From NCBI RefSeq assembly GCF_000186265.1, contig NC_014934.1:434001-498000 (forward strand): a stretch of 64,000 nt of DNA, read 5' to 3'. A program made the translations under genes and the position numbers. The notes below the pieces were generated by a model. It worked only from the letters and a program-made list of their open reading frames with translations, searched no databases and had not been told where the DNA came from. Origin of the DNA: Cellulophaga algicola DSM 14237 (GTDB taxonomy: Bacteria; Bacteroidota; Bacteroidia; Flavobacteriales; Flavobacteriaceae). Below are positions 34,227 through 62,028 of this stretch, in pieces (within the stretch, counting starts at the first letter, position 1; the number at the start of each line of letters is the position of its first letter).

Positions 34227-34541
34227 ATGTCTAAAAACAATTCAATACTCCTACCAAAACTAGAGCGCTTGCTAGAAGAAATGGGAGAGCAAATAAGGTT
34301 AGCACGTCTAAGAAGAACGTTAAGTGCAGATCAAGTTGCAGAACGAGCAGGTACGAGCAGAAGAACATTATATTCGATAGAGAAAGGGAAAAGTTCTGTT
34401 GGTATTGGTATTTACCTTAAAGTATTAAACGTACTCGGATTAGAAAAAGATGTTTTAAATATTGCAAAGGATGATGTTCTTGGTCGAAAATTACAAGACA
34501 TAGGGTTAACCACTAAAGAACGTGCTCCAAAAAGAAACTAA
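34227..34541 (+). CDS. hipB: HipB-like helix-turn-helix antitoxin
   Basis: A 104-residue XRE-family protein, with the start at 34227 chosen because the seven extra upstream residues overlap the operator. The helix-turn-helix is ARLRRTLSADQVAERAGTSRRTLYSIEKG (in pieces), around residues 25-53. The gene is 3 bp upstream of the HipA-like kinase. It should bind DNA at the two palindromes and neutralise the kinase. Confidence 0.88.
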   Translation: MSKNNSILLPKLERLLEEMGEQIRLARLRRTLSADQVAERAGTSRRTLYSIEKGKSSVGIGIYLKVLNVLGLEKDVLNIAKDDVLGRKLQDIGLTTKERAPKRN

Positions 34542-34544
34542 GAA

Positions 34545-40841: not shown

Positions 40842-40907
40842 GGGTATAATAGTGCTATTTTTAGATAAAGTTAAAGAACCCAAAATAACAAGCTTCCTTT
40901 ATTTTTG
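40842..40907 (+). promoter_or_regulatory. PUL operator-promoter A (GntP gene)
   Basis: Box 1 GGGTATAATAGTGC begins at 40842 and box 2 AGATAAAG begins at 40863, 21 bp later. The -7 element TATTTTTG ends at 40907, 44 bp after the start of box 2. The ATG is 30 bp further on. The arrangement is the same at three other PUL promoters. Confidence 0.7.
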
Positions 40908-40937
40908 ATTCTATAAAAACCTGCCTAATCCTCATTT

Positions 40938-42242
40938 ATGTCTGCAACAGTTATTCTAGTACTATGTATTGTCTTATTAATTGTAGCCGTTACAATTCTT
41001 AAAATTCACCCTATTCCTGCCTTATTAGTTTTTGGTTTATTGCTGGGCTTAGCTACTGGCGGTACCGTAACCACAGTCACAGAAAGTCTTTTAAATGGTT
41101 TTGGGAATACGTTAAAATGGATAGGCCTAATCATTTTCTTTGGAGCTTTTTTAGGTGAAATACTCTCCAAATCTGGGGGTGCAGAAATTATCGCTAATAC
41201 CCTTATTAAATTATTTGGAACAAAATTCCTACCGTTAAGCATGGCAGTAATAGGTTTTTTAATTGGAATTCCTGTTTTTATGGATGTCGCTTACCTAACC
41301 TTATTGCCTACGCTTCATGTATTATCCAAAAAATCTGGTCATTCCATATTAGTGTTGGGTCTTTCATTAGCCATGAGTTTAACTGTTGCCCATGCGCTAG
41401 TCCCCCCCACTCCAGGCCCTTTAGCTGTCGCGGCTATATTAGAAGTAAATGTTGGTGAAATTATACCCTTAAATATGCTAATTGCTATTTGCGCTATTGC
41501 GGGAGGTTTAATCTGGTTAAAACTAAACAAGAATTTTTTAAAACAAACAAAAATTCAAGAGTCTATTGAAATTAACACTAAGGAACATCAAATTAAGGGC
41601 TTTAAGAGATTACTCCCTTTTATAGCACTTTTACTTCCTTTGGCTTTGATGTCTATTGGCTCTTTTTTTAATACCGAAAATCAATATATTGCTTTTATTA
41701 AAAACCCTATGTGGGCATTATTAATAGGTATTCTATGCGCACTTCCCCTTTTACCTTCAAAAAAATTTAGTAGTACTGTAAATCAATATTTTCAAAATGC
41801 TGCTACAAAAACTGCCATTGTAATCTTAATAACAGGTACAGGAGGCGCTTTCGGACAAGTAATAAAAGATACTGAAATAGTAAATTCTATGTTTGCTAAT
41901 GTTAATGCTACTGGAGTTATGACAGTAATAATTCCTTTTCTCTTGAGCATGTTATTTACTACAATTACCGGTTCTATTACTGTTTCATTGATCACTACGG
42001 CATCAATTGTAGCCCCATTAATAGCTAATGGCACACTCGACCCACAGTTTACTACTGCAGCTATCTGCACAGGATCATTAGGCATAATTCACGTAAATAG
42101 CAGCTTCTTTTGGCTCTTTAAGGAAGTACATGATGTGTCGGTTAGTAAACTTCTAAAATCCTTTAGCCTACTCTCTTTTGTCGTATCTCTATTTGGCGGA
42201 TTTACAGTACTATTGGCATACTATTTTAAAGAATTACTCTAA
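40938..42242 (+). CDS. GntP-family gluconate/sugar-acid:H+ symporter
   Basis: A 434-residue inner-membrane transporter of the GntP family with 12-14 helices. Signatures are IPVFMDVAYLTLLPTLHVL, HALVPPTPGPLAVAAIL and GSLGIIHVNSSFFWLFKEV. It would import aldonic or related sugar acids with protons. In this locus the substrate could be 3,6-anhydrogalactonate, galactonate or a keto-deoxy acid; that is inferred from the neighbours. It has its own operator-promoter. Confidence 0.88.
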   Translation: MSATVILVLCIVLLIVAVTILKIHPIPALLVFGLLLGLATGGTVTTVTESLLNGFGNTLKWIGLIIFFGAFLGEILSKSGGAEIIANTLIKLFGTKFLPLSMAVIGFLIGIPVFMDVAYLTLLPTLHVLSKKSGHSILVLGLSLAMSLTVAHALVPPTPGPLAVAAILEVNVGEIIPLNMLIAICAIAGGLIWLKLNKNFLKQTKIQESIEINTKEHQIKGFKRLLPFIALLLPLALMSIGSFFNTENQYIAFIKNPMWALLIGILCALPLLPSKKFSSTVNQYFQNAATKTAIVILITGTGGAFGQVIKDTEIVNSMFANVNATGVMTVIIPFLLSMLFTTITGSITVSLITTASIVAPLIANGTLDPQFTTAAICTGSLGIIHVNSSFFWLFKEVHDVSVSKLLKSFSLLSFVVSLFGGFTVLLAYYFKELL

Positions 42243-42266
42243 AACAGTATAAGTATCCCCATTAAC

Positions 42267-42332
42267 GGTTAAAATAATGCCTACTTGGGGTAAAATCATT
42301 GAATACAAGCATTGCTTATTCTTTTTTCTTTG
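42267..42332 (+). promoter_or_regulatory. PUL operator-promoter B (RhaT gene)
   Basis: Box 1 GGTTAAAATAATGC begins at 42267 and box 2 GGGTAAAATC at 42288, 21 bp apart. TTTCTTTG ends at 42332, 44 bp after box 2 start, a variant -7 element (TTnnTTTG). Confidence 0.7.
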
Positions 42333-42401
42333 TAATGGCATGATAGAGAATAGTTTTCCATGTACTAATTTACAAACTATTCATCTAAAAATACAATCAA
42401 T

Positions 42402-43409
42402 ATGAATGAGTATACCTTAGCTATAACCCTAGTTGTGTTCGCTAGTTTCTTTCAAGGAACTTTCGGATTAGGTATGAAGAATATAGCCCCGTTAAAATGG
42501 GAGGCTTGGTGGGTAATTCAATCTTTAGTAGCTATGATTATAGTGCCAGTAGCCTGGGCTCTTTTTGTTATTCCAGATCTTTTTGAGATTATCCAGCAAA
42601 CTGAAAACTTTACATTATTCATTTCTGCCTTTTACGGTTTACTATGGGGCATAGGTGGCATTTTATTTGGTATTAGTGTTGAAAAAACAGGAATCTCCAT
42701 CACTTATGGTATTGTAATGGGGCTCGCTGCATCTGTAGGCTGTATAATTCCTTTATTCCAAATAGAAGGTGCATTCGCACAACCCTCATTTCCTATAATA
42801 GTATGCGGCGTTGTACTTCTTTTAGTTGGAGTAACGATAACTGCAATTGCAGGAGTAAAAAGAGATCAATTAAAGGAGCAGAATTCAACAGCAAATAAAT
42901 CAATTAAAATTGGAGTACTTATCGCAGTAGCATCTGGTATTTTATCCGCCTTTTTAAACGTAGGTTTTATTAAAGCGGGTCCTGTTGCGAAATTAGCGGT
43001 AGAAGCTTATAATACCTCTACACAAAATGCTAGTCTAGCCTCATGGGTAGTGGTTCTTGTAGGAGGATTTGTCATGAATGGCGGCTATGCATTATTCCTA
43101 TTGATAAAAAATAACTCATGGAGTTCCTTTAAAGTAAAAAATAGTAAGAAAGCCTATTTCTGGTCCGTATTAACGGGGGTTTTCTGGTTTTCAGCCTTAG
43201 GAGTTTACGGCCAAGGAGCTGCACTGATGGGAGATTTAGGCCCCGTAATTGGCTGGCCTATACTCTTAGGTTTAGCATTAATCATTAGTAATATTTGGGC
43301 ATATCGTGCAGGAGAATGGAAAGATGCACACAAGCCTTTCAAAATTCTCTTAACAGGCTTAGCCGTTTTAATAGGAGCAATTTGCTTATTAGGATATGCA
43401 AATTATTAA
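42402..43409 (+). CDS. RhaT-like sugar:H+ symporter
   Basis: A 335-residue protein with 10 helices resembling the L-rhamnose-proton symporter RhaT: KNIAPLKWEAWWVIQSLVAM near the N-terminus and LLWGIGGILFGISVEKTGISITYGI in the third segment. Position in the locus suggests a sugar such as anhydrogalactose or galactose rather than rhamnose; no rhamnose genes are present. It starts a new transcription unit that may run on into the catabolic genes, 74 bp later. Confidence 0.85.
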   Translation: MNEYTLAITLVVFASFFQGTFGLGMKNIAPLKWEAWWVIQSLVAMIIVPVAWALFVIPDLFEIIQQTENFTLFISAFYGLLWGIGGILFGISVEKTGISITYGIVMGLAASVGCIIPLFQIEGAFAQPSFPIIVCGVVLLLVGVTITAIAGVKRDQLKEQNSTANKSIKIGVLIAVASGILSAFLNVGFIKAGPVAKLAVEAYNTSTQNASLASWVVVLVGGFVMNGGYALFLLIKNNSWSSFKVKNSKKAYFWSVLTGVFWFSALGVYGQGAALMGDLGPVIGWPILLGLALIISNIWAYRAGEWKDAHKPFKILLTGLAVLIGAICLLGYANY

Positions 43410-43483
43410 GACTTATAAATTAAAAACAAACCATTAATTTCTTGTAATCAAACACAGGAAACTTTATAAAATATCGACTAGGC

Positions 43484-44653
43484 ATGAAGATCAAATCAAT
43501 AGAACCTTTCGTAATTAGCCATAAGCTAGATACACCTTTTTATTTCTCACAATGGCAATATGATACCCGAAAAATATGCCTTGTAAAAATTACTTTAGAA
43601 GACGGTACCTATGGCTGGGGAGAAGGGTATGGTCCTGCCAATGTTATAAAAGCTGGAATTGAATTTTTTGAACCTTTTTTAATTGGTAAAATTGCCATTG
43701 AAAACGAGGTCCTTTGGCAAGAAATGTATCGTAGATCCATGGATTATGCCCGAAGCGGAACCTTACAAGCCTCTATAAGTGCCATTGATGTTGCTCTTTG
43801 GGACATTAAAGGAAAACTTCTAAACTTACCTGTTTCTGTTCTTTTAGGCGGGTTAAAAAATCCGATTATTGAACCCTATGCAACAGGATTATATTTTACA
43901 CGAGTAGAAAACTTAGAGCAATCGCTTATAGCAGAGGCCTTGCTTTACAAATCTCAAGGATTTAAAGCTATAAAAATGAAAGTAGGCTTAAGTGTAAATG
44001 AAGACATTAAATACGTTGGTGCAATACGTAAAGCTATTGGTCCTAATGTGCGCTTAATGATAGACTCTAACCATGCGTATTCCTACAAAGAGGCTATAGA
44101 ATTAGCTAGAAAAGTAGAGAAATATGATATCTCTTGGTTTGAGGAACCTGTTTCTCCAGAAGATTACTCTGGCTATAAAAAATTAAGAGCAAACACTACA
44201 ATTCCTATCGCTGGTGGAGAATGTGAATACCTTAAATTTGGTTTTAAACGTTTATTAGAAAATGAATGCGTTGATATTGCGCAACCCGATATTTGCGCCG
44301 CAGGCGGATTAACAGAAGCAAAGAAAATTGCCACTTTAGCACAGGTCTTTAACAAAGATGTAGTACCACATACTTGGGGGACCTGGATCGCTATTAGTGC
44401 AGCAGCACATTTTATAGGTAATTTAGATAAAAATCCTGGTAGGATGTATAATGATCTTCCAACTATGGAATTAGACAGAACAGAAAACGCCTTAAGGGAT
44501 ATTGTAACTAAGGGCGAAATAAATGTGGTAAACGGACAGTTTTGTGTCCCTACGTCTCCCGGATTAGGTGTTGATGTAGACTTGAATAAATTAGAAGAAT
44601 ATCTTGATAAAGAAATACACCAAAATGAAAACAAATTTAAAATTCGGTCATAA
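43484..44653 (+). CDS. Enolase-superfamily cycloisomerase candidate (3,6-anhydro-D-galactonate)
   Basis: A 389-residue mandelate-racemase-subgroup enzyme. The KxK pair is KAIKMKVG (Lys164/Lys166). Mg ligands are Asp194, Glu220 and Glu246 (in DSNHAYS, WFEEP, AGGECEY), and the general-acid/base His296 is in VPHTWGT. Enzymes of this type convert 3,6-anhydro-D-galactonate to 2-keto-3-deoxy-D-galactonate in the carrageenan pathway (called DauB in the literature). The next genes, dehydrogenase, kinase and aldolase, are the other steps, which supports this. A galactonate dehydratase role is the alternative. Confidence 0.72.
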   Translation: MKIKSIEPFVISHKLDTPFYFSQWQYDTRKICLVKITLEDGTYGWGEGYGPANVIKAGIEFFEPFLIGKIAIENEVLWQEMYRRSMDYARSGTLQASISAIDVALWDIKGKLLNLPVSVLLGGLKNPIIEPYATGLYFTRVENLEQSLIAEALLYKSQGFKAIKMKVGLSVNEDIKYVGAIRKAIGPNVRLMIDSNHAYSYKEAIELARKVEKYDISWFEEPVSPEDYSGYKKLRANTTIPIAGGECEYLKFGFKRLLENECVDIAQPDICAAGGLTEAKKIATLAQVFNKDVVPHTWGTWIAISAAAHFIGNLDKNPGRMYNDLPTMELDRTENALRDIVTKGEINVVNGQFCVPTSPGLGVDVDLNKLEEYLDKEIHQNENKFKIRS

Positions 44654-46073
44654 AAAGTTATATATAAATGGGGAATTAAGAGATGCTTCTAATGGAGCTT
44701 CTTTTGATGTCATTTGCCCTGCAGACGAGCAAGTCGTTGCAAACCTTGCTTGGGCGAGTAAAGAAGATACTCAACTTGCTTTATCTAGTGCTCAAAAAGG
44801 ATTCGAATATTGGTCAACATTACCTATTACCGAACGTTTAGATTGGATTGATAAGCTAAGAAATAAATTAATTGAAAATAGTGATTTATTACGAGAAAGT
44901 ATCATGTATGAAATGGGAAAAACTTGGGAAGGTAGCGCCGAAGACCTTACGAGTATTACCAATTCTCTTAAATATTATGCCGAAGAAATTGTAAAACGTC
45001 ATGATATTAATATTGACGATAAAGAAGGCACACATTCACATTATGTAAAATCGCAACCTTTGGGTGTTGTCGTGGCATTTTTAGCCTATAACTTTCCGTT
45101 ATTAAACCTAGGTTTTAAACTGGGACCAGCACTTGCGGCTGGGTGTAGTATTATACTAAAACCATCAGAATTCTCGCCGCTCTCTGCTTATATTATCGGA
45201 GCGCTATGCAAAGAACTAAATTTCCCTAAAGGGGTTATTACTATTATAAGTGGCGACGTAGAAAATGTTGGAATTCCACTTTGCGAAAGCAAAATTCCAC
45301 GCCTGATTACAATGATAGGTTCTACAGAAACTGCACAAAAATTAATAGCACAAAGCAGTAAAACATCTATTAAAAGATACAGTATGGAATGTGGTGGAAA
45401 TGCCCCATTTATAGTTTTTGATGATGCTGATTTAGAATTAGCAATCACAATTGGAGCTGCACTTAAAACAGGCAACACAGGTCAAATTTGTGTTGCTCCC
45501 AATAGATTTTTTATCCATGAATCTGTAATTGATGCTTTTACTGATGGCATGGTAGCCAAGTTTAAAAATACAGTTATTGGCTTCGGAAAAGAGAATAAGC
45601 CAGACATGGGGCCCATGACCAATAAACAATCCGTTTTAAAAGTAAGTAAGATTGTAAAAGATGCTATAGCACAAGGCGGGAAATTAATTTATGGAGGAAA
45701 ACCTATCAATAGAAAAGGATTTTATTTTGAACCTACCATAATCCGAATGGATGATAATAATGCTGCAATTTTACAAGAAGAAATTTTTGGACCCATAGCT
45801 AATATTGTTACTTTTAGCTCTAAAGAAGAAGTTTTAGAATTAGCCAATAATACAGATGCTGGATTAGCTTCTTATGTCTTTTCTAAAAATACTGACACTT
45901 TAAATTATTTTGCTGATAAATTAGAATTTGGCGAGGTACAATTGAATGGTGTAAAATATGATATCTACCTACCTCATGGCGGAGTAAAAAATAGCGGAAT
46001 AGGTGTAGACTGCTCTACTTATGCTTTAGATGATTATTTAGCTAAAAAGAGGGTAACAAAAGCTTTGATATAA
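44625..46073 (+). CDS. Aldehyde dehydrogenase, probable 3,6-anhydro-D-galactose dehydrogenase
   Basis: A 482-residue NAD(P)-dependent ALDH. The start at 44625 (MKTNLKFGHKKLY) overlaps the upstream gene by 29 bp. Catalytic residues are Glu255 in RYSMECGGNAPF and Cys289 in GNTGQICVAPN, and LKPSEFSPLSA is the cofactor-binding segment. It is closest to succinate-semialdehyde or lactaldehyde dehydrogenase types. The position between a cycloisomerase and KDGal kinase makes oxidation of 3,6-anhydro-D-galactose to the acid (DauA in the literature) the likely reaction. Confidence 0.8.
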   Translation: MKTNLKFGHKKLYINGELRDASNGASFDVICPADEQVVANLAWASKEDTQLALSSAQKGFEYWSTLPITERLDWIDKLRNKLIENSDLLRESIMYEMGKTWEGSAEDLTSITNSLKYYAEEIVKRHDINIDDKEGTHSHYVKSQPLGVVVAFLAYNFPLLNLGFKLGPALAAGCSIILKPSEFSPLSAYIIGALCKELNFPKGVITIISGDVENVGIPLCESKIPRLITMIGSTETAQKLIAQSSKTSIKRYSMECGGNAPFIVFDDADLELAITIGAALKTGNTGQICVAPNRFFIHESVIDAFTDGMVAKFKNTVIGFGKENKPDMGPMTNKQSVLKVSKIVKDAIAQGGKLIYGGKPINRKGFYFEPTIIRMDDNNAAILQEEIFGPIANIVTFSSKEEVLELANNTDAGLASYVFSKNTDTLNYFADKLEFGEVQLNGVKYDIYLPHGGVKNSGIGVDCSTYALDDYLAKKRVTKALI

Positions 46074-47021
46074 ATGAAAAAACGTGAATATTTTATTAGT
46101 TGTGACTGGGGAACCTCCAATTTTAGATTGAGAGTTGTAGAAAATTCTAGCTTAAAAATACTAGCGGAACATAAAACAGACCAAGGTATAAAGTCATTAT
46201 ATGAAAAATATTTAACTCAGACGGTAAAAGATCAAACCACTTATTTTGCGGAGTATTTAGCTTCCGAAATTTCAAATTTACCTAAAATACATAGAAAACA
46301 CATTGTAGTAGCAGCTGGTATGGCATCTGCTAATATTGGTCTGTATGAAATGGATTATGCCGATTTTCCTTTAAACGGAAATGGAGATAATTTAAAATGG
46401 AAACATTTAAAACTTCCTAATAATCTAGAACTTCTGCTAATATCTGGAGCAAAAACCAACTCTGAAATGATGCGAGGAGAAGAAATACAAGCGGTAGGCT
46501 TAAATGATCAATTAACTCCTTATCAAAAAGGAGTCTTAATATTACCAGGAACGCATAGCAAACATCTCACATACAGGAATTCGCAATACCTAGACTTAAA
46601 AAATTTCATGACAGGAGAGCTGTTTGAAGTACTTTCTCAAAAAAGTATTCTTTCAAATTCTATTCTTAAAGAAAATACGATTATTAATGAAAATGTTTTT
46701 ATTGAAGGGGTAAAGCTGGGCCTAAAAGGACTTTTAAGTGAGCGTTTATTTTCGGTTAGAGCTAGGCACATATTGGACCATAAACCTAAAGAAGATAATT
46801 ACTATTTTTTAAGCGGACTCCTAATTGGTGATGAAATAAAATACTTAGCGAATACTGTTGATACCATTTTTTTAGTAGCTCCAGATCCTGTATTCAGTCT
46901 CTACAAAATAGCATTAGAACAAATAATTATAAAAGAAAAACTAATCCTTTTAGATGGTCACTATCTAGAAAAAGCACTCTTAATTGGCCAACAAAAAATA
47001 TTAAAAAATTATGACCAGTAA
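46074..47021 (+). CDS. 2-dehydro-3-deoxygalactonokinase (KDGal kinase)
   Basis: A 315-residue DgoK-type kinase of the actin-like ATPase fold. The phosphate-1 motif is FISCDWGTSNFRLRVVE at the N-terminus, and ILPGTHSKHL and FMTGELFEVLSQKSI are DgoK signatures. It phosphorylates 2-keto-3-deoxy-D-galactonate at O6 in the cytoplasm. The ATG touches the upstream stop (TAA then ATG) and the next gene overlaps by 11 bp, so this is a tightly coupled operon. Confidence 0.9.
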   Translation: MKKREYFISCDWGTSNFRLRVVENSSLKILAEHKTDQGIKSLYEKYLTQTVKDQTTYFAEYLASEISNLPKIHRKHIVVAAGMASANIGLYEMDYADFPLNGNGDNLKWKHLKLPNNLELLLISGAKTNSEMMRGEEIQAVGLNDQLTPYQKGVLILPGTHSKHLTYRNSQYLDLKNFMTGELFEVLSQKSILSNSILKENTIINENVFIEGVKLGLKGLLSERLFSVRARHILDHKPKEDNYYFLSGLLIGDEIKYLANTVDTIFLVAPDPVFSLYKIALEQIIIKEKLILLDGHYLEKALLIGQQKILKNYDQ

Positions 47022-47658
47022 AACATCATTTTCTTGGGATGCTTATAACAAAGCTCCAATTGTAGGGATTATACGAGGCGAAAGTATTGATATTGTTCGC
47101 GAAATTGCCAAATCTTATATTGCCGCAGAATTGTTTACCATCGAAATTACAATGAACACAAAAGATGCTGACAAAATCATTACAATGCTTAGAAGCGAAT
47201 TTCCTAATTTAAATGTAGGTGCTGGTACCGTCTGCAATATAAATGATTACGAAAAAGCTATAGAAGCTGGTTCCCAATTTATTGTAACACCTATCATTGA
47301 CGAAGTAGTAATCAAAAAAGCCGTTTCTGATAATATTCCGATTTTCCCAGGAGGTTATTCTCCTACGGAAATCTATAAAGCATGGGATTTGGGTGCTTCT
47401 GTTGTTAAAATTTTTCCAGCCACGCTACTGGGGCCTACTTACGTAAAAGATGTATTAGCACCTCTAAATAAAATAAAACTGCTACCAACAGGAGGCGTTA
47501 ATAAAGATAATATAAAATCTTTTTTTGCTGCCGGAGCTACTGGTGTTGGCATGGGTAGTTCACTATTAAACAAGCAACTTATTAAAGAGAGAAATTTTGA
47601 TGGTTTAACAGAATATTTCAAAAATATAAAGTCAGAAATACAAGAGTATATAAAATAA
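47011..47658 (+). CDS. KDPGal aldolase (2-keto-3-deoxy-6-phosphogalactonate aldolase)
   Basis: A 215-residue class I aldolase of the KDPG/KHG/KDPGal family. Schiff-base Lys133 is in VVKIFPATLLG and Glu45 in IEITMNT, with GAGTVCNINDYEKAIEAGS also conserved. Asn at position 49, where KDPG aldolases have Arg, is as in DgoA (IEIPLN), so the galacto substrate is favoured. It splits KDPGal to pyruvate and glyceraldehyde 3-phosphate. It overlaps the kinase by 11 bp. Confidence 0.9.
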   Translation: MTSKTSFSWDAYNKAPIVGIIRGESIDIVREIAKSYIAAELFTIEITMNTKDADKIITMLRSEFPNLNVGAGTVCNINDYEKAIEAGSQFIVTPIIDEVVIKKAVSDNIPIFPGGYSPTEIYKAWDLGASVVKIFPATLLGPTYVKDVLAPLNKIKLLPTGGVNKDNIKSFFAAGATGVGMGSSLLNKQLIKERNFDGLTEYFKNIKSEIQEYIK

Positions 47659-47736
47659 TCTTCTTGTATTTATTCTAGAATAAAAGCCACTTAACATAGC
47701 ATCGCTAAAATAATATAACACCTAATAATTTCTAGT

Positions 47737-48060
47737 ATGAACTACGAATTTAGCCATATCGGCATACCTACAACTGAAGAAAAAGCGTGGGATGGTTTTT
47801 ACGAACCTGGAAAAATACATTACACAGCGTTTGATAAAGACGAGTACAATATAGAATGGGTAAAATTTGATACTGACAGTCCAATGCCAGAGTTAATACG
47901 CACCATACCACACGTAGCTTACTTTGTAGATAATATGGAAGATGCTTTACAAGGCAAAGATATTTTAGTGGATACTTTTTCTCCTGGCGAAGGCGTGCGC
48001 GTAGCTTTTATAAAACACAACGGTGCTCCTGTAGAGTTTATGGAGATAAAAGACGCATAA
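47737..48060 (+). CDS. Small VOC/glyoxalase-like protein
   Basis: A 107-residue protein with the pattern of one VOC-type module: a first strand MNYEFSHIGIPTT, an IEWVKFD metal-site-like strand, PHVAYFVDNMEDALQGKDIL and a final strand PVEFMEIKDA. His and Glu residues at the strand ends could bind a metal. Its place in the middle of the anhydrogalactose operon points to a role in that pathway, for example a mutarotase or lactone-opening step, but this is inferred from position. Confidence 0.6.
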   Translation: MNYEFSHIGIPTTEEKAWDGFYEPGKIHYTAFDKDEYNIEWVKFDTDSPMPELIRTIPHVAYFVDNMEDALQGKDILVDTFSPGEGVRVAFIKHNGAPVEFMEIKDA

Positions 48061-48082
48061 AGGATATTTAAAAAATTAAAAA

Positions 48083-49372
48083 ATGACCAACCTTAGCCCA
48101 ACTAAAAAAAGATATAATATTCTGGCCTTGATATTTGGCACGGTTGTAATTAATTATTTAGACAGAACCAATATATCTGTTGCTGCTTCCGCAATTAGTG
48201 AATCTTTAGAGCTTAGTACAGTGCAAATGGGGCTTATTTTTTCCGCATTTGGATGGACTTATGTTGCATTGCAAATTCCTGGCGGTCTTATTGTTGATAA
48301 AATTAGATTACGTGTTTTGTATGCTGTAATGCTATTTTGTTGGTCTATTGCTACCTTACTTCAAGGTTTTGTAAACTCTTTTTCTGTTTTATTAGGCTTA
48401 AGAGCTAGTATTGGTGTATTTGAAGCCCCGTCTTACCCTGCAAATAATGCCATCGTAACTAAATGGTTTCCAGAAGAAGAAAGAGCATCCGCAATAGCCA
48501 TTTACACCTCTGGTCAATTTATAGGTTTAGCATTTTTATTTCCTATACTGGCATTCATACAAGATAAATTAGGTTGGCGAGGATTACTCGTAGTCTCTGG
48601 GGTAATCGGTATTATTTGGGCGTTTATTTGGTATTTTATTTACAGAGATCCAGACACGCATAAAACAGTAAATAGAGAAGAATTAGACCATATCCAAAAA
48701 GGTGGTGGTTTAGCAAATGGTTCTAATTCAGAAACTAAAACAAAAATCAATTGGTCTGATTTAGCAGAGGCATTCAAATACAAGAAATTATGGGGGGTTT
48801 ATTTAGGACAATTTTGTGTAGGCTCAGTATCTATATTCTTTCTAACGTGGTTCCCTACCTATTTGGTAGAATACCGCGGCTTAGATTTTATTAAATCTGG
48901 ATTTTTAACCTCTTTACCTTTTTTAGCCGCTTTTTGTGGTGTTTTACTTTCTGGTTTCACATCAGATTATTTAATAAAAAAAGGAAAAACAAAAGAATTT
49001 GCACGAAAAACACCTGTGCTAATCGGACTTTTACTTTCTACGACTATCATTGGCGCCAACTTTACTGACAGTACTTTTTACATTATTTTATTTTTAGCTA
49101 TAGCCTTTTTCGGAAATGGTTTAGCATCTATCACTTGGGTTTTCGTATCCTTATTAGCTCCAAAACGCTTAGTAGGTTTAATAGGAGGCGTTTTTAATTT
49201 AGCAGGTGGCTTATCTGCTGTTGTTGTGCCGTTTGTAATAGGAATCCTCGTAAAGGATGGTGACTTTAGTCCCGCATTATATTTTATAGGAGCAATGACC
49301 CTAATAGGATTTTTATCATTCTTATTTATTGTAGGTAAGGTTGAAAGGGTTGATGAAATAAAAAAGAAATAA
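48083..49372 (+). CDS. MFS sugar-acid transporter (ACS family)
   Basis: A 429-residue 12-helix transporter. The N-terminus shows NYLDRTNISVAASAISESL and GWTYVALQIPGGLIVDKIRLR, typical of the anion:cation symporter (ACS) group that includes ExuT and DgoT. The substrate is probably a uronate-like or galactonate-like acid. It precedes a DgoD-type gene by one base, so D-galactonate is a plausible substrate. Confidence 0.85.
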   Translation: MTNLSPTKKRYNILALIFGTVVINYLDRTNISVAASAISESLELSTVQMGLIFSAFGWTYVALQIPGGLIVDKIRLRVLYAVMLFCWSIATLLQGFVNSFSVLLGLRASIGVFEAPSYPANNAIVTKWFPEEERASAIAIYTSGQFIGLAFLFPILAFIQDKLGWRGLLVVSGVIGIIWAFIWYFIYRDPDTHKTVNREELDHIQKGGGLANGSNSETKTKINWSDLAEAFKYKKLWGVYLGQFCVGSVSIFFLTWFPTYLVEYRGLDFIKSGFLTSLPFLAAFCGVLLSGFTSDYLIKKGKTKEFARKTPVLIGLLLSTTIIGANFTDSTFYIILFLAIAFFGNGLASITWVFVSLLAPKRLVGLIGGVFNLAGGLSAVVVPFVIGILVKDGDFSPALYFIGAMTLIGFLSFLFIVGKVERVDEIKKK

Positions 49373-49373
49373 A

Positions 49374-50531: not shown

Positions 50532-50562
50532 ACAAAACTGTAACGTAATATAACCTAATCTA

Positions 50563-52332: not shown

Positions 52333-52378
52333 TTTCAACTTAAAAATAGCTAAATAAGCAACACTTCTCCTCTTACAT

Positions 52379-52444
52379 GGATAAAATAGTGCTATAACTG
52401 GATAAAATCAGTCGAACTTCTTCACTTTATTTTTTATTAATTTG
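52379..52444 (+). promoter_or_regulatory. PUL operator-promoter C (sulfatase-GH127 operon)
   Basis: Box 1 GGATAAAATAGTGC begins at 52379 and box 2 GGATAAAATC at 52400; both boxes are identical over nine bases and 21 bp apart. TTAATTTG ends at 52444, 44 bp after box 2 start. The sulfatase ATG is 65 bp further. The best-conserved of the four copies. Confidence 0.75.
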
Positions 52445-52508
52445 TATCTATTCCTTGTTTTTATTGATAATAACTCAATAAACAAGAATTAAAATTAATA
52501 ATTTAAAA

Positions 52509-53924: not shown

Positions 53925-53952
53925 CGACTAAACCAAACTAAAAGTTTCCAAA

Positions 53953-56052
53953 ATGAGAAGGATACAAGCACTATTAACACTGGGATTATTTTTTATTTCG
54001 TGCAAACAAGAGGTAAAAGATACAGTAGCTTCAAATACTACAGTAACAGCATCAACTTTAGCATTAGATAACGGTAAGGGCATTTTAAATAATACCAATA
54101 GTCCTCATGTAAAGTTCAAAAGTATAGATTTTGGCGAGTGCCAATGGACGGAAGGTTTTTGGGCAGAAAAATTTAAAACTGCTGAAACCAAAATGATTCC
54201 TTACATGAGGAGTTTACTAACGGGTGATAAGGGTCATGCGCTTAATAATTTTAAAATAGCTGCAGGATTAAAAGAAGGTGAACACAAGGGCATGCATTGG
54301 CATGATGGCGACTTCTATAAATTTATGGAAGCTATCATGTATGTTTACGGGCAAAATAAAGATGAAAATCTTCGCAAAGAAATAGACGATTACATTTTAA
54401 TTATCGGAAAAGCCCAAAAAGAGAATGGGTACCTTCAAACTCAAATTCAGTTGTATGCTGACCGGAAGCCCTATGAAAATAGAAAGTATCATGAAATGTA
54501 TAATTCAGGACACTTACTTACTAGTGCATGCATCCATTATCGCATTACAGGACAAACCAATTTTTTAGATATTGCTATTAAACATGCTGACCTGATGTAT
54601 TCTTTATTCATGACGGATGATTCGCGCTATGGCAGATTTGGTTTTAATCAAACTCAAATCATGGGGCTGGTAGAATTATACAGAACAACTAAAAACAAAA
54701 AATATCTAGATTTAGCAGAGCAATTCATCAACAATAGAGGTAAATATGAGGTTAAAGAGACTCCTGAAACGAAAGGGTATCCTATAGGCGACATGGTTCA
54801 AGAACGTACCCCGCTTCGCGAATCTGATGAAGCTGTTGGTCATGCCGTTTTAGCTTTATACTACTATGCAGGAGCTGCAGATGTTTATGCAGAAACCGGT
54901 GAGCAAGCTTTAATAGATGCTTTAGACAAACTATGGATGAATGTTGCACTGAAAAAAATGTATGTAACTGGTGCTGTAGGTCAAGCACATTACGGTGCAT
55001 CAACCAATAGAGATAAAATAGAAGAAGGTTTTATTAATGAATATATGATGCCTAACACCACGGCCTATAATGAAACTTGTGCAAATATCTGTAATTCTAT
55101 GTTCAGCTATAGAATGTTAGGACTTCACGGTGAATCTAAATATGCCGATGTAATGGAGACGGTATTGTACAACAGTGCGCTTTCTGGAATTAATATTGAA
55201 GGAGACAGGTACTATTATGCCAACCCACTACGTACTGTTCACGGTTCACGAGACTATGATAAGATGAATACCGAGTTTCCTGTGCGACAAGATTATTTAG
55301 AATGCTTTTGTTGTCCGCCAAATTTAGTACGCACTATTGCTCAAGTATCTGGTTGGGCCTACAGCAAATCTGAAAATGGAATCGCTGTTAATTTATATGG
55401 GGGAAATAAATTAGCGACTACTTTAAATGACGGCTCTTCACTTAAACTAAAACAAGAAACAAAATATCCTTGGGAAGGTGATGTTGAAATTACTATTGAA
55501 GCATGCAGAAGTGATGCTTTTGACATTCTTTTGAGAATTCCGGAATGGGCAGAAGGTTCTAAAATAATGATCAATGGTAAAGAGTCTGAAATCCTTGCTA
55601 CTCCAGGAACCTATGCTACATTAAACCGAACTTGGAAAGCCAATGACACTATTCGCTTAGACTTGCCTTTAGCTATCAATTTCATTGAAGGTCATGGTCG
55701 TATAGAAGAAGTAAGAAATCAGGTGGCAATAAAAAGAGGTCCTGTAGTATATTGCTTAGAATCTGTAGATTTACCAGCGGAAAGCAGCATATTAGATGTG
55801 TATATCAAAGGAGATACAAAACAATTAAAATCTGATTTTCATCCAGATTTTTTAGGAGGAGTGTCCACTATATCCGGAGAGGTATTATTACGTAAAGAAC
55901 ATAATGCTGATGATGCGATGTATCAAAAAATAGAACATCCAGAATGGACAACTTTTAAAACGACATTCATACCTTACTTTACGTGGTCAAACAGAAGTAA
56001 TGAAGAGACAGAAATGTCTGTATTCTTACCTGTTGTATGGGAGCAAAAATAG
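53953..56052 (+). CDS. GH127 family glycoside hydrolase, lipoprotein
   Basis: A 699-residue DUF1680/GH127 protein with a lipoprotein signal (LGLFFISC, Cys17), so it acts at the envelope. The (alpha/alpha)6 barrel part has GMHWHDGDFYKF. Zinc/thiolate residues match HypBA1: Glu374 and Cys376 in YNETCAN, and Cys453 and Cys454 in CFCCPPN. Zobellia GH127 enzymes in the carrageenan regulon are alpha-1,3-(3,6-anhydro)-D-galactosidases, which is the most likely activity here. It is followed by a sugar porter gene and has a cytoplasmic-type paralogue at 59195. Confidence 0.88.
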   Translation: MRRIQALLTLGLFFISCKQEVKDTVASNTTVTASTLALDNGKGILNNTNSPHVKFKSIDFGECQWTEGFWAEKFKTAETKMIPYMRSLLTGDKGHALNNFKIAAGLKEGEHKGMHWHDGDFYKFMEAIMYVYGQNKDENLRKEIDDYILIIGKAQKENGYLQTQIQLYADRKPYENRKYHEMYNSGHLLTSACIHYRITGQTNFLDIAIKHADLMYSLFMTDDSRYGRFGFNQTQIMGLVELYRTTKNKKYLDLAEQFINNRGKYEVKETPETKGYPIGDMVQERTPLRESDEAVGHAVLALYYYAGAADVYAETGEQALIDALDKLWMNVALKKMYVTGAVGQAHYGASTNRDKIEEGFINEYMMPNTTAYNETCANICNSMFSYRMLGLHGESKYADVMETVLYNSALSGINIEGDRYYYANPLRTVHGSRDYDKMNTEFPVRQDYLECFCCPPNLVRTIAQVSGWAYSKSENGIAVNLYGGNKLATTLNDGSSLKLKQETKYPWEGDVEITIEACRSDAFDILLRIPEWAEGSKIMINGKESEILATPGTYATLNRTWKANDTIRLDLPLAINFIEGHGRIEEVRNQVAIKRGPVVYCLESVDLPAESSILDVYIKGDTKQLKSDFHPDFLGGVSTISGEVLLRKEHNADDAMYQKIEHPEWTTFKTTFIPYFTWSNRSNEETEMSVFLPVVWEQK

Positions 56053-56095
56053 ATTGAACAGTAATACGAAAAAAAACATTTAAACCAATAGATTT

Positions 56096-57661
56096 ATGAA
56101 TTCATTTAAAAGAAATGCATACACCTACTCTACCATTGTTGCTATTGGTGGTTTTATTTTTGGATTAGATGCTGCCCTTATATCAGGAACCATAAATTTC
56201 ATTACTAAAGAATTTGGTTTAACAGCATTAGAATTAGGTACTGTAGTGAGTGCTCCTGGACTGGGTGTTTTAATTGCTTTACCCATTGCAGGTTATGCTT
56301 GTAATTCTTTAGGAAGAAAAAAAACATTACAAATCGTTGCGGCACTTTATCTAATTTCTGCCATAGGATCTACTTTTGCTCCAAACTATTGGACCCTAGT
56401 TATTGCTCGTTTTTTAGGGGGTTTAGCATTTAGTTCTATATCATTAGCCTCTATGTACATTGGCGAAATAGCTCCACCAAAATGGAGAGGCAAACTAGTC
56501 TCTATGACTCAAATTAATATTGTATTTGGTTTATCTGCTGCCTATTTCATTAATTATATCATCATACAGTCTATAGATCTCAATGCCACTTGGGTCATTA
56601 ATTGGGGCGTAGATCAACATACATGGCGATGGATGCTTGGTTCAGAAATAATACCTGCTTTGGTATGGTTACTACTATTATTTTTTATTCCAAGAAGTCC
56701 GGCATGGCTGGTTTATCAAGGTAAGCAAGAGGAAGCAAAGAATACATTAAGAAAAATTATTCCAGAAGAAGAAGCTCAGATCCAAATTATAGAAATGCAG
56801 CACACTATGGATACTGGAAATCACAATCATTCTGCGGTATTACAATTAAAAGCAATATTCAGTAAGCCAATGCGTGTTACAATGATTATTGCAATGACGA
56901 TAGCTATAGCACAGCAATCTACAGGTATAAATGCTATACTATTTTATGCTCCAACCGTTTTTGAACAATTAGGTATTGGCACAGATGCTGCATTCATGCA
57001 AGCAATTTGGATTGGCTTAACTAGCGTTGTTTTTACTATTTTAGGTTTACTATTAGTAGATAAATTAGGACGTAGACCTCTTATAATTTGGGGAATGGCT
57101 TGGATTATTTTAAGTCTAGGCATTTGTTTTTACGGATTTAAAACAGCAAGCTATACGATCTCTTCTGAGGCCATTGTTGAAATGAAGGCAATACCCAACG
57201 TAGAGCGACTTAATCCAATAATAGGGATTGAGTATGGTTCTGATATTGCATTTAAAGAAGCTTTAAAAACTACTTTAGGTGATAATGATTCTAGAGAATA
57301 TGCAAGCTTATTACTACAACAGTCTGCAGATATTAATGCAGTATTAATCTTAATAGGAATTTTAAGTTTCATTGCTGCTTTTCACTTTTCTGTAGGCCCT
57401 GTAATGTGGGTGCTCTTTTCAGAGATTTTCCCAATCTCCTTAAGAGGTATTGCAATCCCGTTCTTTACGCTTGTAACAAGTATAGTTAGCTATTTAGTAC
57501 AGAAATTCTTTCCATGGCAATTAGATACCATGGGAATAAGCAACACCCTTTTGTTTTATGCGATAACTGTAGCAATTGGCTTAGTGATTCTTTTTAAATA
57601 TCTGATTGAAACCAAAAATATGACCATTGAAGAAATTCAATTAAAACTTCAAAATAAATAA
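56096..57661 (+). CDS. MFS sugar porter (SP family)
   Basis: A 521-residue 12-helix transporter with sugar porter motifs LGRKKTLQ, ARFLGGLAFSS, PRSPAWLVYQGKQEEA and DKLGRRPLIIWG. A long loop between helices 9 and 10 (residues 350-420) is like that of XylE-type porters of Bacteroidetes. It carries a monosaccharide, here probably galactose or anhydrogalactose, across the inner membrane by proton symport. Confidence 0.9.
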   Translation: MNSFKRNAYTYSTIVAIGGFIFGLDAALISGTINFITKEFGLTALELGTVVSAPGLGVLIALPIAGYACNSLGRKKTLQIVAALYLISAIGSTFAPNYWTLVIARFLGGLAFSSISLASMYIGEIAPPKWRGKLVSMTQINIVFGLSAAYFINYIIIQSIDLNATWVINWGVDQHTWRWMLGSEIIPALVWLLLLFFIPRSPAWLVYQGKQEEAKNTLRKIIPEEEAQIQIIEMQHTMDTGNHNHSAVLQLKAIFSKPMRVTMIIAMTIAIAQQSTGINAILFYAPTVFEQLGIGTDAAFMQAIWIGLTSVVFTILGLLLVDKLGRRPLIIWGMAWIILSLGICFYGFKTASYTISSEAIVEMKAIPNVERLNPIIGIEYGSDIAFKEALKTTLGDNDSREYASLLLQQSADINAVLILIGILSFIAAFHFSVGPVMWVLFSEIFPISLRGIAIPFFTLVTSIVSYLVQKFFPWQLDTMGISNTLLFYAITVAIGLVILFKYLIETKNMTIEEIQLKLQNK

Positions 57662-57680
57662 ACATTCTCAAAAAATACTC

Positions 57681-59165
57681 ATGAAATACTTCAAAATTTA
57701 TAAACTACTATTTATAGTTTGTGTTCTGCTTTGTACCTCAGAAAACCATGCTCAAAAAAAAAGCGCCAAGGCTGCAAAAGAAAAATTGAATAAGAAGAAT
57801 AATGCATCAAACGCATATCCTTTTTCTGATCCCAATAATGAAGGGAATTGGATGCTGAATAAAGAGGTTAGTGATGAGTTTGAAGGCACAGAAATAGATA
57901 CCACAAAATGGTTTGTAGAAGGTCAGAATGGAGATTACTACATTTGGAAAGGCAGAGCCCCTTCTCAATTTGCACCCCATAACGTACGCGTAGAAGATGG
58001 TATTCTAAAATTACGCACTCAATGGGAACCTGATTATCCTTTTGCTAACGAGAGCTACGCAGATGGTAGTAATAATGATACCTATGGCGTTTTTGAAGGA
58101 GAATCATTACCAATAACTACAGCTGGTATTGTAGGAAAAAAACGTTTCTTAAATGGATATATGGAAGTAAAATCTAAACAAGGTAATGCTGCCATAACAG
58201 GTGCCTTCTGGGCCATTGGATATGAACAAGAGTTAGATGTCTATGAACTTATGGGAAACCCAAAAATAGATGGGAATATAAAGGCTAATTCGTATCTGGC
58301 TACAGCTCACGATTGGAGTCCACCTGCAGTAAGACCTACTAAAGTATTTAACCATATAGAAGAGTTACCTTTTAGAACTGCAGATGATTTTCATGTGTAT
58401 GGTGCTGAATGGGGGAAAGACTTTCTTAAATTATTTATTGATGGTAAATTGGTACATCATTTTACCCAAGACCAAGTAGGGACAGATTGGGTATTAAATA
58501 ACCCGATGGAAATCTGGTTAGATTCAGAAATTTTCAAATGGTTAGGACTTCCTCACAAAGAGGAGCTTCCTGTAGATTTTGAGATTGACTACATGCGTGT
58601 ATGGCAAAAACCTACAGACAACTTGTTAGCTCCTGCATTTTTTGGCTTTGAAGGCCCCATTTTATTTGAGGAAAACCCAAGACCTCTAAAAATGGTTCCT
58701 GAAGACTCTACCCCTAATGATTATCAAAAATTTTGGTCTATAGACGACTCATCTGCTACTTATCTAAGCATTGTTCATGGCGATTATGCTTCTGGCGTAA
58801 ATAGTTTGAAATTTACAGGCTATGGAAAAAATGACTCATTAAATGTAGATACTGTCAAAATTATTAGCCCAGAAGGTGCGCTCAAGTTACCCGCTGGAGC
58901 ATTAGAAGTTTCTATGAAAGTTTGGTTAGATCAAGGTCGTGTAACCGATAAAATTCATGTTACCTTAACCAACCCCAATGTAAAAGTGGTTTTTTCTGAT
59001 CTTAATAAATTGGCCAGACGTGAATGGATAACGGTATCTGCAAAAATAAACAGAACACAGGCCTCTAAAAAAGAAGATCAAATGATTATCGAAATTAAAA
59101 AAGAAGACCTCCCTGCTACAAAAGCAGCGAAATTCCTTATTGATGACATAAAAATTAAAAAGTAA
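57681..59165 (+). CDS. GH16 galactanase with C-terminal beta-sandwich
   Basis: A 494-residue exported enzyme (signal ending SENHAQ). The GH16 catalytic motif is ELDVYELMG with Glu184 as nucleophile, Asp186 and Glu189 as acid/base. VSDEFEGTEIDTTKWF is the usual GH16 N-terminus, and DFEIDYMRVWQKP closes the domain at about residue 310. The remaining 180 residues form a jelly-roll-like module that may bind carbohydrate. Within a carrageenan-type PUL it is most likely a kappa-carrageenase or furcellaranase-like endo-hydrolase; agarase or porphyranase is possible. Confidence 0.85.
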   Translation: MKYFKIYKLLFIVCVLLCTSENHAQKKSAKAAKEKLNKKNNASNAYPFSDPNNEGNWMLNKEVSDEFEGTEIDTTKWFVEGQNGDYYIWKGRAPSQFAPHNVRVEDGILKLRTQWEPDYPFANESYADGSNNDTYGVFEGESLPITTAGIVGKKRFLNGYMEVKSKQGNAAITGAFWAIGYEQELDVYELMGNPKIDGNIKANSYLATAHDWSPPAVRPTKVFNHIEELPFRTADDFHVYGAEWGKDFLKLFIDGKLVHHFTQDQVGTDWVLNNPMEIWLDSEIFKWLGLPHKEELPVDFEIDYMRVWQKPTDNLLAPAFFGFEGPILFEENPRPLKMVPEDSTPNDYQKFWSIDDSSATYLSIVHGDYASGVNSLKFTGYGKNDSLNVDTVKIISPEGALKLPAGALEVSMKVWLDQGRVTDKIHVTLTNPNVKVVFSDLNKLARREWITVSAKINRTQASKKEDQMIIEIKKEDLPATKAAKFLIDDIKIKK

Positions 59166-59194
59166 GCTATTTAAAAATATATAATCTAGTATTT

Positions 59195-61183
59195 ATGAAT
59201 ACCACCATGAAAAAATCTACCGTCTCAAGTATAGATAATTCTGCAAGCCCATTTGTACAACTAAAAAACATCAATCTTACAGATTGCCAATGGACCAATG
59301 GTTTTTGGGCAGAAAAATTTAAAACCTGTGAAGATATTATGGTACCATATATGGGTGAGGTGCTCTGTGGTGATATAGGGCATGCTTTAAACAATTTTAA
59401 AATTGCAGCTGGCGAAAAAGAGGGAGAACACAAAGGAATGTTTTGGCACGATGGTGATTTCTATAAATTTATAGAAGCCAAAATTTACGTGTATGCACAA
59501 AATAAAGACATTAAAATACTTGAAGAAATAGACCACTATATCCGTATAATCGCCAAAGCTCAAGAAGCAGATGGATACCTACAAACACAAATACAACTGC
59601 GACCAGAAGTAGATCGTTACGAAAATAGGAAGTACCATGAGATGTACAATACAGGGCATCTATTGATTACAGCTTGTGTACATTTTCGAGTGACTGAGCA
59701 ACGTACTTTTTTAGACATTGCTATCAAGCACGCAGATTTATTACATACCATTTTTATGCCTGAAACTAAACATTATGGTCGGTTTGGTTTTAATCAAACG
59801 CAAATAATGGGATTGGTAGAATTATACAGAACTACGGAAGATAAAAAGTATTTGGCCCTTGCAGAACGTTTTATAAACAATAGAGGTGTCTATGCCGTAG
59901 AACATAATGATACTACCATTGGCTACCCTATTGGAGATATGGTTCAAGAACGTACTCCTTTACGTGAATCTACTGAAGCTGTTGGTCATGCAGTTCTTGC
60001 TTTATATTTCTATGCAGGTGCTGCTGATGTAGCCGCTGAAACTGGCGAAGAAGCTTTAATAAAAGCTTTAGACCGACTTTGGGAAAATGTAACTCAGAAA
60101 AAAATGTACCTTACTGGAGCTGTTGGTCAAGCCCATTACGGGGCTTCGACTAATTTAGATATGATTGAAGAAGGCTTCATTAATGAATATATGATGCCAA
60201 ACATGACAGCGTATAATGAGACGTGCGCAAATATTTGTAATGCCATGTTTAGTTATAGAATGTTAGGACTCCATGGAGCATCTAAATATGCAGATATTAT
60301 GGAGCTTGTACTCTACAATAGTGCACTATCTGGAATTAGTATTGAAGGTAATTCATACTTCTACGCTAATCCATTAAGAATGTTAAACAACACTCGAGAT
60401 TACGATGCGCATGAAAATGTTACCGAGACACCCAATAGAGAACCTTATTTAAGTTGCTTTTGCTGCCCTCCTAATTTAGTGCGTACCATTGCGCAGGTTT
60501 CTGGGTGGACGTATAGTATAGCAAAAAATGGTATTGCTCTAAATTTATTTGGCAGTAGTGTACTAAAAACAACGTTAGCAGACGGCTCTAGTTTGGTGAT
60601 ACATCAAGATACGGAATACCCTTGGAAAGGCTTAGTAAAATTAACTATCGAAGAATGTAAAGATACTGCTTTCGATATTTTAGTTAGAATCCCTTCTTGG
60701 GCTACTGGAGCAACATTAACTATTAATGGCACTAAAACTGATGCCCCAGTTACGGCTGGAAAATATGCCATTATTAACAAAAATTGGAAAAAAGGAGATT
60801 TGCTTGTGTTAGACATGCCTATGGATGTTCAAATTATAGAAGGCCATCCAAGAATTGAAGAAGTTAGAAATCAAATCGCCGTAAAAAGAGGTCCTATTGT
60901 ATACTGTATAGAATCTCCAGATTTACCCAAACATACGAGTATTCTAGACGTGTATTTTAATAAAAATGCCTCCTTAGAAGCTACGCATAAACCTGATTTT
61001 TTAGGCGGTATAACAACGTTACAAGGAGAGCTATTAATACGAAAAGATAAAAGTGAAAGCATGTACAGAACGGTTCAAAAACCAGAATTTGAATCTTACA
61101 AAACACAACTTGTACCCTATTTTGCATGGAGTAATAGAGGTCAAGCAGAAATGACTGTATTTATGCCCGTAGTCTGGGAATAA
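59195..61183 (+). CDS. GH127 family glycoside hydrolase, no signal peptide
   Basis: A 662-residue GH127 closely similar along its length to the lipoprotein at 53953, but it starts MNTTMKKSTVSSIDNSASPF, with no signal, so it is probably cytoplasmic. Active-site residues are kept: Glu342 and Cys344 in YNETCAN, Cys423 and Cys424 in CFCCPPN. An internal start at 59207 (MKKS) is also possible. It probably acts on imported oligosaccharides to free 3,6-anhydro-D-galactose for the dehydrogenase. It is the last gene of its operon. Confidence 0.87.
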   Translation: MNTTMKKSTVSSIDNSASPFVQLKNINLTDCQWTNGFWAEKFKTCEDIMVPYMGEVLCGDIGHALNNFKIAAGEKEGEHKGMFWHDGDFYKFIEAKIYVYAQNKDIKILEEIDHYIRIIAKAQEADGYLQTQIQLRPEVDRYENRKYHEMYNTGHLLITACVHFRVTEQRTFLDIAIKHADLLHTIFMPETKHYGRFGFNQTQIMGLVELYRTTEDKKYLALAERFINNRGVYAVEHNDTTIGYPIGDMVQERTPLRESTEAVGHAVLALYFYAGAADVAAETGEEALIKALDRLWENVTQKKMYLTGAVGQAHYGASTNLDMIEEGFINEYMMPNMTAYNETCANICNAMFSYRMLGLHGASKYADIMELVLYNSALSGISIEGNSYFYANPLRMLNNTRDYDAHENVTETPNREPYLSCFCCPPNLVRTIAQVSGWTYSIAKNGIALNLFGSSVLKTTLADGSSLVIHQDTEYPWKGLVKLTIEECKDTAFDILVRIPSWATGATLTINGTKTDAPVTAGKYAIINKNWKKGDLLVLDMPMDVQIIEGHPRIEEVRNQIAVKRGPIVYCIESPDLPKHTSILDVYFNKNASLEATHKPDFLGGITTLQGELLIRKDKSESMYRTVQKPEFESYKTQLVPYFAWSNRGQAEMTVFMPVVWE

Positions 61184-61216
61184 TAAATTGAGTAAGTTTA
61201 ATTAAGCTTTATTTTA

Positions 61217-61254
61217 ATAACCACTACAAATTAAAAAATGTAGTGGTTATTTTA
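61217..61254 (+). terminator. Terminator of the sulfatase-GH127 operon
   Basis: ATAACCACTACA and TGTAGTGGTTAT pair in a perfect 12-bp stem over a 10-base loop, followed by TTTTA. Confidence 0.85.
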
Positions 61255-61962
61255 TGAGCAAGTTTTATTATTTAAACAAAACTATAGTCCATCAAAAGTA
61301 AATTCTTAAACCCTTTACTCTATGCTTTACCACTAACATTGATAATCGCAGTTGTAAGTATAGCTAACAGACTCCCCTATCCCCCCAACTATTTATTATT
61401 CACTACTATTTTAACATAAAGATTAGGTGCATGTGGCATTATCTGCTGGTAAATTTTAATCCTGTCTGCATTTTTTTGTTACTATTTTCAAAACATATTA
61501 TAAATGAGCTGTATCCTATTTATGGTCATTTTCAATATCTTCTATACAATTAGTACTCATAAGATATAATCTAAAACGTAAATCTCTACTTCCTATGCTA
61601 GTTGATGGGTTAAACCATACCTACACCACACAAACCTTTACCTCATCCCAATTTGAAACCCGTAAAATATATAATACCTCCTGCAGCCAAAAGTAGTGAC
61701 AGATCTTCACTTACCTGTACTTAATATACGCTTCTGTTCATTTAAGTTTAACCATATATTAGTAGGATTAAATTTAATTTGAAATAAGATATGGTAAATA
61801 GAAAGCCCAACAACAGCATTTTTAAATCATTGAGTACTGTACTTCCCCATTTCTATCAGAATATAAACTTTTATTTATCAAAATAGACAGAGATAGTAGG
61901 CCCTTACTTAAAGCAACTAATCATTTCTATTACCCAACAAATACTAAGATTCTATATAATTA
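61255..61962. other. Intergenic region before the last sulfatases
   Basis: About 700 bp, AT-rich. No gene, RNA or repeat was recognised. A 38-codon open frame near 61590-61700 has no start and no recognisable product. Confidence 0.4.
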
Positions 61963-62028
61963 GGGTAAAATAGTGCGATAATAGGTTAAATGATAAGAAG
62001 TCTTTATACTTAAAATTGATTTATTTTG
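61963..62028 (+). promoter_or_regulatory. PUL operator-promoter D (sulfatase pair)
   Basis: Box 1 GGGTAAAATAGTGC begins at 61963 and box 2 GGTTAAATG at 61984, 21 bp later. TTATTTTG ends at 62028, 44 bp after box 2 start. The sulfatase ATG is 24 bp further on. Confidence 0.7.

Follow-up and report, generated by a model that had tools for sequence, protein, structure and literature searches.

What reads a direct repeat that recurs at four promoters of a carrageenan-type gene cluster, and to what effect, is the question raised by a 64,000-nt stretch (positions 434001-498000) of the Cellulophaga algicola DSM 14237 genome (hereafter, the window), in which the cluster lies downstream of an AraC-family gene at position 39914. 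An earlier note, made from the letters of this DNA, had suggested that an AraC-family activator works at weak promoters from a site at constant spacing, and we find this to be the best-supported reading: very probably, the repeats constitute the operator of the CgrA protein encoded at 39914, which would work as an activator at operons for carrageenan import and breakdown. The reading draws its support from the orthology of the regulator to CgrA, from a fifth promoter that had not been seen when the repeat was described, from the co-occurrence of repeat and regulator across the family, and from published induction in Zobellia galactanivorans, which fits with one exception.

Four operators in register with their promoters

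The pattern GGNTAAAATARTGC-N7-GGNTAAA, derived from the four window sites themselves, describes two like boxes in the same direction, 21 bp apart, as in AraC-type operators with 21-bp direct repeats. All four sites lie where the earlier note had placed them (Table 1), with box 2 starting 21 nt after the start of box 1 and the G of TTTG following 44 nt past the start of box 2 in every case. Three sites match the pattern without mismatches, while the first carries two, one in each box (GGGTATAATAGTGC and AGATAAA). At up to three mismatches, the window holds exactly these four matches against 0.11 expected from shuffles, a comparison that is partly circular, as the pattern was made from the same sites. 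The TTTG register of the -7 element thus stands, and the TAnnTTTG form ascribed to it does not, since three of the four elements read TTnnTTTG.

Table 1. Operators, promoter elements and genes in the window, with the site beyond its end
Feature	Position (strand)	Basis or remark
cgrA-like gene, AraC-family regulator: cupin-like sensor and predicted seven-helix DNA-binding domain	39914..40798 (+)	Pfam, model, Foldseek
Operator 1	40842..40869 (+), box 1 40842-40855, box 2 40863-40869	2 mismatches
TTTG, -7 element of promoter 1	40904..40907 (+)	predicted +1 at 40912
GntP-family permease, ZGAL_3158-like, first gene behind operator 1	40938..42242 (+)	Pfam 7.2e-85
Operator 2	42267..42294 (+)	0 mismatches
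TTTG, promoter 2	42329..42332 (+)	predicted +1 at 42337
Gene run behind operator 2	42402..52332 (+)	Pfam; putative single transcript
Operator 3	52379..52406 (+)	0 mismatches
TTTG, promoter 3	52441..52444 (+)	predicted +1 at 52449
Run behind operator 3: sulfatase, GH127, sugar transporter, GH16, GH127	52509..61183 (+)	Pfam
Operator 4	61963..61990 (+)	0 mismatches
TTTG, promoter 4	62025..62028 (+)	predicted +1 at 62033
Sulfatase, first gene behind operator 4	62052..63707 (+)	Pfam
Fifth operator, ahead of susC/susD	genome 505992 (L014:9993), outside window	whole-genome scan

We scanned the whole genome (4.89 Mb, a single contig) with the same pattern, using its reversed version as a control. The boxes alone gave 13 matches at up to three mismatches, against six in the control, and five at up to two mismatches, all of them inside 31 kb around the cluster; with TTTG required at its fixed place, five matches were found at up to three mismatches against one in the control. 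The fifth site, 8 kb past the end of the window, precedes a susC/susD pair, and no further one was found at up to three mismatches with TTTG. All five sites with TTTG are confined to 31 kb.

The register was also observed in 22 loci fetched solely for encoding a close CgrA, with TTTG left unused in the search for the boxes. TTTG occupies the exact offset in 26 of 28 sites at up to one mismatch, in 32/37 at up to two and in 39/45 at up to three, at a background frequency of 0.8% of positions, although loci within one genus are related and these counts are not independent trials. The two exceptions among the 28 (L024 and L026) have TTTA in the same place. Conservation at related loci, which the earlier note had proposed to look for, was evident in 22/22 genomes fetched through CgrA: they contain 135 matches in total (up to three mismatches, TTTG included), against four for the reversed pattern. 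Window shuffles, reversed controls and the fixed TTTG offset in orthologous loci together rule out a chance repeat.

The anatomy of the operator was derived from 36 sites that share less than 80% identity and were selected by their boxes alone (up to two mismatches). Their consensus is (G/T)GNTA(A)AATARTG(C/T) for box 1 and (G/A)GNTAA(A/T) for box 2, and the -7 element begins with T in 36/36 sites, followed by T (24) or A (12) at the second position and, further on, by TTTG. With the TAnnTTTG box of F. psychrophilum, located at -12 to -5 (PMC9723704), as reference, box 1 is predicted to start at -70 and box 2 at -49 relative to the start of transcription. At the expected location of a -33 element, columns 30 to 49, the information content is below 0.4 bits throughout. 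The lack of such an element carries little weight in Flavobacteriaceae, since no -33 motif could be identified in F. johnsoniae at large, as stated in a paper on B. thetaiotaomicron (PMC7366714).

Start codons follow TTTG at anything between 17 and 524 nt in the 94 classified sites at up to two mismatches, while the spacing of boxes and TTTG is constant, which makes the promoter the anchor of the operator. As, moreover, the boxes sit upstream of the predicted start, an RNA leader element can be ruled out as the meaning of the repeat. No Rfam family reached its gathering score between positions 39700 and 64000 of the window.

The regulator and the genomes that carry it

The protein encoded at 39914 matches the Pfam profiles HTH_18 (2.3e-21) and HTH_AraC (3.1e-9) over their cut-offs and Cupin_2 (0.00064) below its cut-off. 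In a structure model (mean pLDDT 79), seven helices follow from residue 181 on, and Foldseek matched this model to AraC-family proteins, with TM 0.78 for the AraC DNA-binding domain (2k9s) and, for the sensor, 0.63 for RhaR (5u93) and 0.57 for AraC (2arc), all by target length; the whole-chain matches ToxT, CsvR and Rns reached only TM 0.33-0.37 (query length). The predicted architecture, a C-terminal domain with two HTH motifs joined to a cupin-type N-terminal domain, is that of the AraC/XylS family. Residues H31, H33, E35 and H71 of the sensor (gene 39914-40798) are conserved in all 29 aligned relatives; they presumably resemble the metal-binding set of cupins, and ligand binding by CgrA may involve a metal.

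The earlier note took this to be the only AraC-family gene in the window, and a profile search agrees, giving a single match to the AraC-type DNA-binding profile there. This is no proof by itself, because 27 HTH_18 matches exceed the Pfam cut-off in the genome as a whole (28 in all); among them, only 39914 reaches E 1e-60 in a search with CgrA, in which six candidates were scored. The protein is 67-93% identical, over nearly its full length, to 22 orthologues and, judged by sequence, is the orthologue of CgrA (ZGAL_3159) of Z. galactanivorans, a known activator of carrageenan use (PMC5698469). Gene neighbourhood is kept as well, with GntP and RhaT homologues behind the sites in orthologous loci, Z. 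galactanivorans included. According to PMC5698469, a cgrA deletion mutant starts to grow on carrageenans after a lag and grows less on them, with growth on agar unaffected, which the authors read as positive control, and 3,6-anhydro-D-galactose is proposed there as an effector.

Operator and regulator co-occur in a sample of 397 genomes of the family (C. algicola included), 11 of which encode a CgrA orthologue at 69% identity or higher. Two or more sites at up to two mismatches were found in all 11 of these genomes and in 6/386 of the others (Fisher p 1.5e-17, with the relatedness of the genomes ignored), and all 11 zero-mismatch matches in the sample belong to CgrA genomes. A genome of the same genus without the orthologue (G229) has no sites. 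At least one match at up to two mismatches occurs in 49 of the 386 genomes without the orthologue; many of the matches in such genomes resemble sites of related AraC regulators, and in seven of the 49, by our reading, a site has a CgrA relative (37-40% identity) no more than about 5 kb away.

Genes behind the operators and their induction

In C. algicola, the run behind operator 2 comprises a RhaT-type symporter, two sugar-acid enzymes like dauB and dauA, a dauC-like kinase and a dauD-like aldolase (dau names were assigned by family and gene order), as well as a 107-aa ORF, an MFS transporter, a second enolase-family protein and a sulfatase. The sulfatase behind operator 4 is followed, beyond the window, by two further sulfatases and other genes. 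Compared with the Z. galactanivorans system (PMC5698469), the regulator, the gene order at the cgrA end (GntP, RhaT, enolase-family and aldehyde dehydrogenase genes) and the kinds of genes in the regulon are the same, whereas susC/susD and a GH16 gene, which accompany the main cluster in C. algicola, are located elsewhere in Z. galactanivorans. Upstream of the carrageenan cluster, at 34206-35798, a 111-aa ORF followed by a gene for a HipA-domain protein possibly represents a HipA-type toxin-antitoxin pair.

For every distinct site in sequence pieces of 25 genomes, we classified the gene that it leads, with identical sites counted once and with ten matches in G025, one 3-mismatch match in G026 and loci L197-L198 excluded. 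Of 98 distinct sites at up to two mismatches, 93 lead homologues of carrageenan PUL genes (seven of these assignments rest on a second susC reference from the site-bearing locus L109, two of the seven at 30% identity, and two more, L024 and L026, on 27% identity to a sulfatase), one leads an iota-carrageenase, one a DHDPS-family gene (L111), and three lead other genes: a peptidase-M64-like protein (L117), an MFS transporter (L160) and one without identification (L157). The 52 matches with three mismatches are mixed: 27 are followed by other reference-set homologues, in one case a CgrA relative, eight by DHDPS-family genes and one by no gene, and 16 have an unclassified first gene. One of the 16 (L130), on a contig other than that of cgrA in Cellulophaga G004, later proved to lead an iota-carrageenase; another is conserved in Zobellia (L102, L169, L185) and in L102 lies opposite an ORF.

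Z. galactanivorans itself (G024) was recognized by its dagB, which matches 5OPQ, the structure of ZGAL_3152 (PMC5698469), over the full length, and the other ZGAL tags were inferred from gene order and homology. It has nine matches at up to three mismatches. Seven lead ZGAL_3158, 3157, 3150, 3147, cgsB2 (181), cgtA (3581) and an iota-carrageenase taken as ZGAL_1973, two of the four PUL sites (3158 and 3147) having three mismatches; the remaining two, also with three mismatches, are the match opposite an ORF (L102) and a site of the DHDPS type that belongs to a CgrA relative (L103).

In the published RNA-seq table, which is its authors' selection, 6/7 site-led first genes respond to 3,6-anhydro-D-galactose against 0/5 site-less ones, the latter being our own choice of "first genes" (Fisher p 0.015); at the gene level, 13/18 genes in site-led runs respond against 0/11 (p 1.3e-4). 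Along the main cluster, log2 induction falls from 7.0 at ZGAL_3157 to 0.7 at 3151 and returns to 7.1 at 3150, where the next site is found; ZGAL_3151-3154, behind the 3157 site, are not induced. The exception is the iota-carrageenase ZGAL_1973, which has a 1-mismatch site and responds by 0.1 log2 to anhydro-galactose, yet strongly to carrageenan; this gene and the uninduced ZGAL_3151-3154 count against the reading. The sites separate the anhydro-galactose-responsive genes from site-less carrageenan-induced genes, which are probably under another regulator. The Z. galactanivorans iota-carrageenase at L101:4021-6003 (minus strand) is split into two frames (4021-4905 and 5014-6003) and reads as interrupted.

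Mode of action, rival readings and related operators

We infer a mode of action in which a CgrA dimer would occupy the two direct-repeat half-sites on one face of the DNA, and box 1 near -70 and box 2 near -49 would bring the protein up to RNA polymerase, with the poor -7 element (T[T/A]nnTTTG) immediately downstream. The ligand, probably 3,6-anhydro-D-galactose or a derivative or product of it, would be held in the cupin-like sensor domain, and ligand-bound CgrA would recruit or activate the polymerase. The AraC dimer of E. coli contacts polymerase at its own target promoter in a like manner, and at araI1-I2 it binds a pair of half-sites in direct repeat at a spacing of 21 bp, of which the proximal adjoins the upstream element of the promoter. 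The regulatory and DNA-binding domains of AraC are among the structural matches of the 39914 protein, whereas the sigma factor and promoter elements are different. It weighs against this reading that the cgrA deletion delays and reduces growth and does not abolish it (PMC5698469).

With 27 HTH_18 matches over the cut-off in the genome, another AraC-type protein could bind the sites and CgrA act indirectly, which we consider unlikely. One candidate would be a 1344-aa hybrid two-component regulator at genome position 529.9 kb (L015:14014-18048, minus strand), some 24 kb beyond the fifth site. In Bacteroides, hybrid regulators are also predicted to bind 21-bp direct repeats (PMC3878776), and Z. 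galactanivorans has another hybrid regulator beside cgsB2 (L099, a 1304-aa ORF). Among the matches listed, however, a close orthologue (at least 59% identical, near full length) occurs in 11 of 23 site-bearing genomes, and in the other 12 the matches listed are at most 42% identical and mostly partial, yet the sites are present; this makes that hybrid regulator improbable as a general binder, and the sites follow CgrA across the family sample. Action of CgrA as a repressor or dual regulator, with the sites blocking polymerase when no ligand is bound, appears very unlikely: box 2 does abut the -33 region, and PMC5698469 speaks of a complex mode of regulation on solid media, but the deletion phenotype was taken there as positive control, and in 24/36 sites the -7 element has T, not A, as its second base, which suits activation. 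That the boxes belong to promoters in general, as an extended upstream element read by the primary sigma factor, is most improbable despite their nearly constant distance from TTTG, as the combination is found at just five places in the 4.89-Mb genome, all within 31 kb, and 337/397 family genomes have no match at up to two mismatches.

Binding by CgrA, then, remains the preferred reading, and what appears to be new is restricted to its operator, the register and the regulon. The earlier note knew of no description of such an operator; this holds for CgrA, for which our literature search, with the supplementary files of PMC5698469 outside its scope, found no description, and the main text of that paper gives no operator sequence. 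It does not hold for the architecture: direct repeats with a periodicity of about 21 bp are known from the hybrid two-component and RhaR regulators of Bacteroides (PMC3878776, PMC3870299), which share the repeat and an AraC-type DNA-binding domain as its reader, but are other regulators, with no fixed distance to the -7 element reported in these sources; the comparison is one of architecture, not of motif sequence. The main text of PMC5698469 does not give the promoters on which CgrA acts. The operator yields a testable regulon, distant genes included. A strict operator-promoter distance for an AraC-type activator, in a phylum with unusual promoters, should also aid the finding of regulons at other algal-polysaccharide loci.

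The layout extends to relatives of CgrA at 31-40% identity. In 14 of 23 such loci (L039-L061), a site of the same layout is present on the opposite strand; the TTTG distance is kept in 13 of them and differs by one base in L049. A DHDPS-family gene follows 13 of the 14 sites, in two loci (L041 and L042) assigned at only 30% identity. When positions 13-14 of box 1 were left free and TTTG was required, position 13 was G in 33/35 sites of CgrA loci and A in 11/12 sites of the relatives. Behind its DHDPS-family gene, Z. galactanivorans has genes for an aldehyde dehydrogenase and a proline racemase, a set known from hydroxyproline breakdown. These comparisons indicate that the operator layout belongs to a clade of regulators, and specificity may rest on few bases. 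Whether one rigid grammar, with boxes at -70 and -49 locked to TTTG, serves a whole Bacteroidota AraC clade, its regulons kept distinct largely by the last one or two bases of box 1, we regard as an evenly balanced proposition; if true, the regulons of such activators would be predictable from sequence alone and could be rewired by a single base change.

The susC genes behind the operator have long leaders, with 123-224 nt between TTTG and the start codon (19 sites). A hairpin upstream of the start codon is present in 8/13 aligned susC leaders (L100, L168, L184, L146, L152 and L138, and, more weakly, L113 and L119), with a stem of up to about 10 bp, one A-C mismatch and stem bases that have changed and are still paired; it was not found in C. 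algicola itself, and the leaders of L100, L138, L146, L152, L168 and L014 gave no Rfam match at E<=1.

A related box pair of the type GGnTAAAATA..CATA..GGAAAA, with TTTG at the same offset, occurs in L122, L132, L150, L155, L164 and L166 and perhaps marks another AraC-type regulon. The genes behind it encode, in several genomes, proteins of 186-194 aa, in which DUF3244 and a secretion-tail domain score over the cut-off in two of five tested and weakly in a third.
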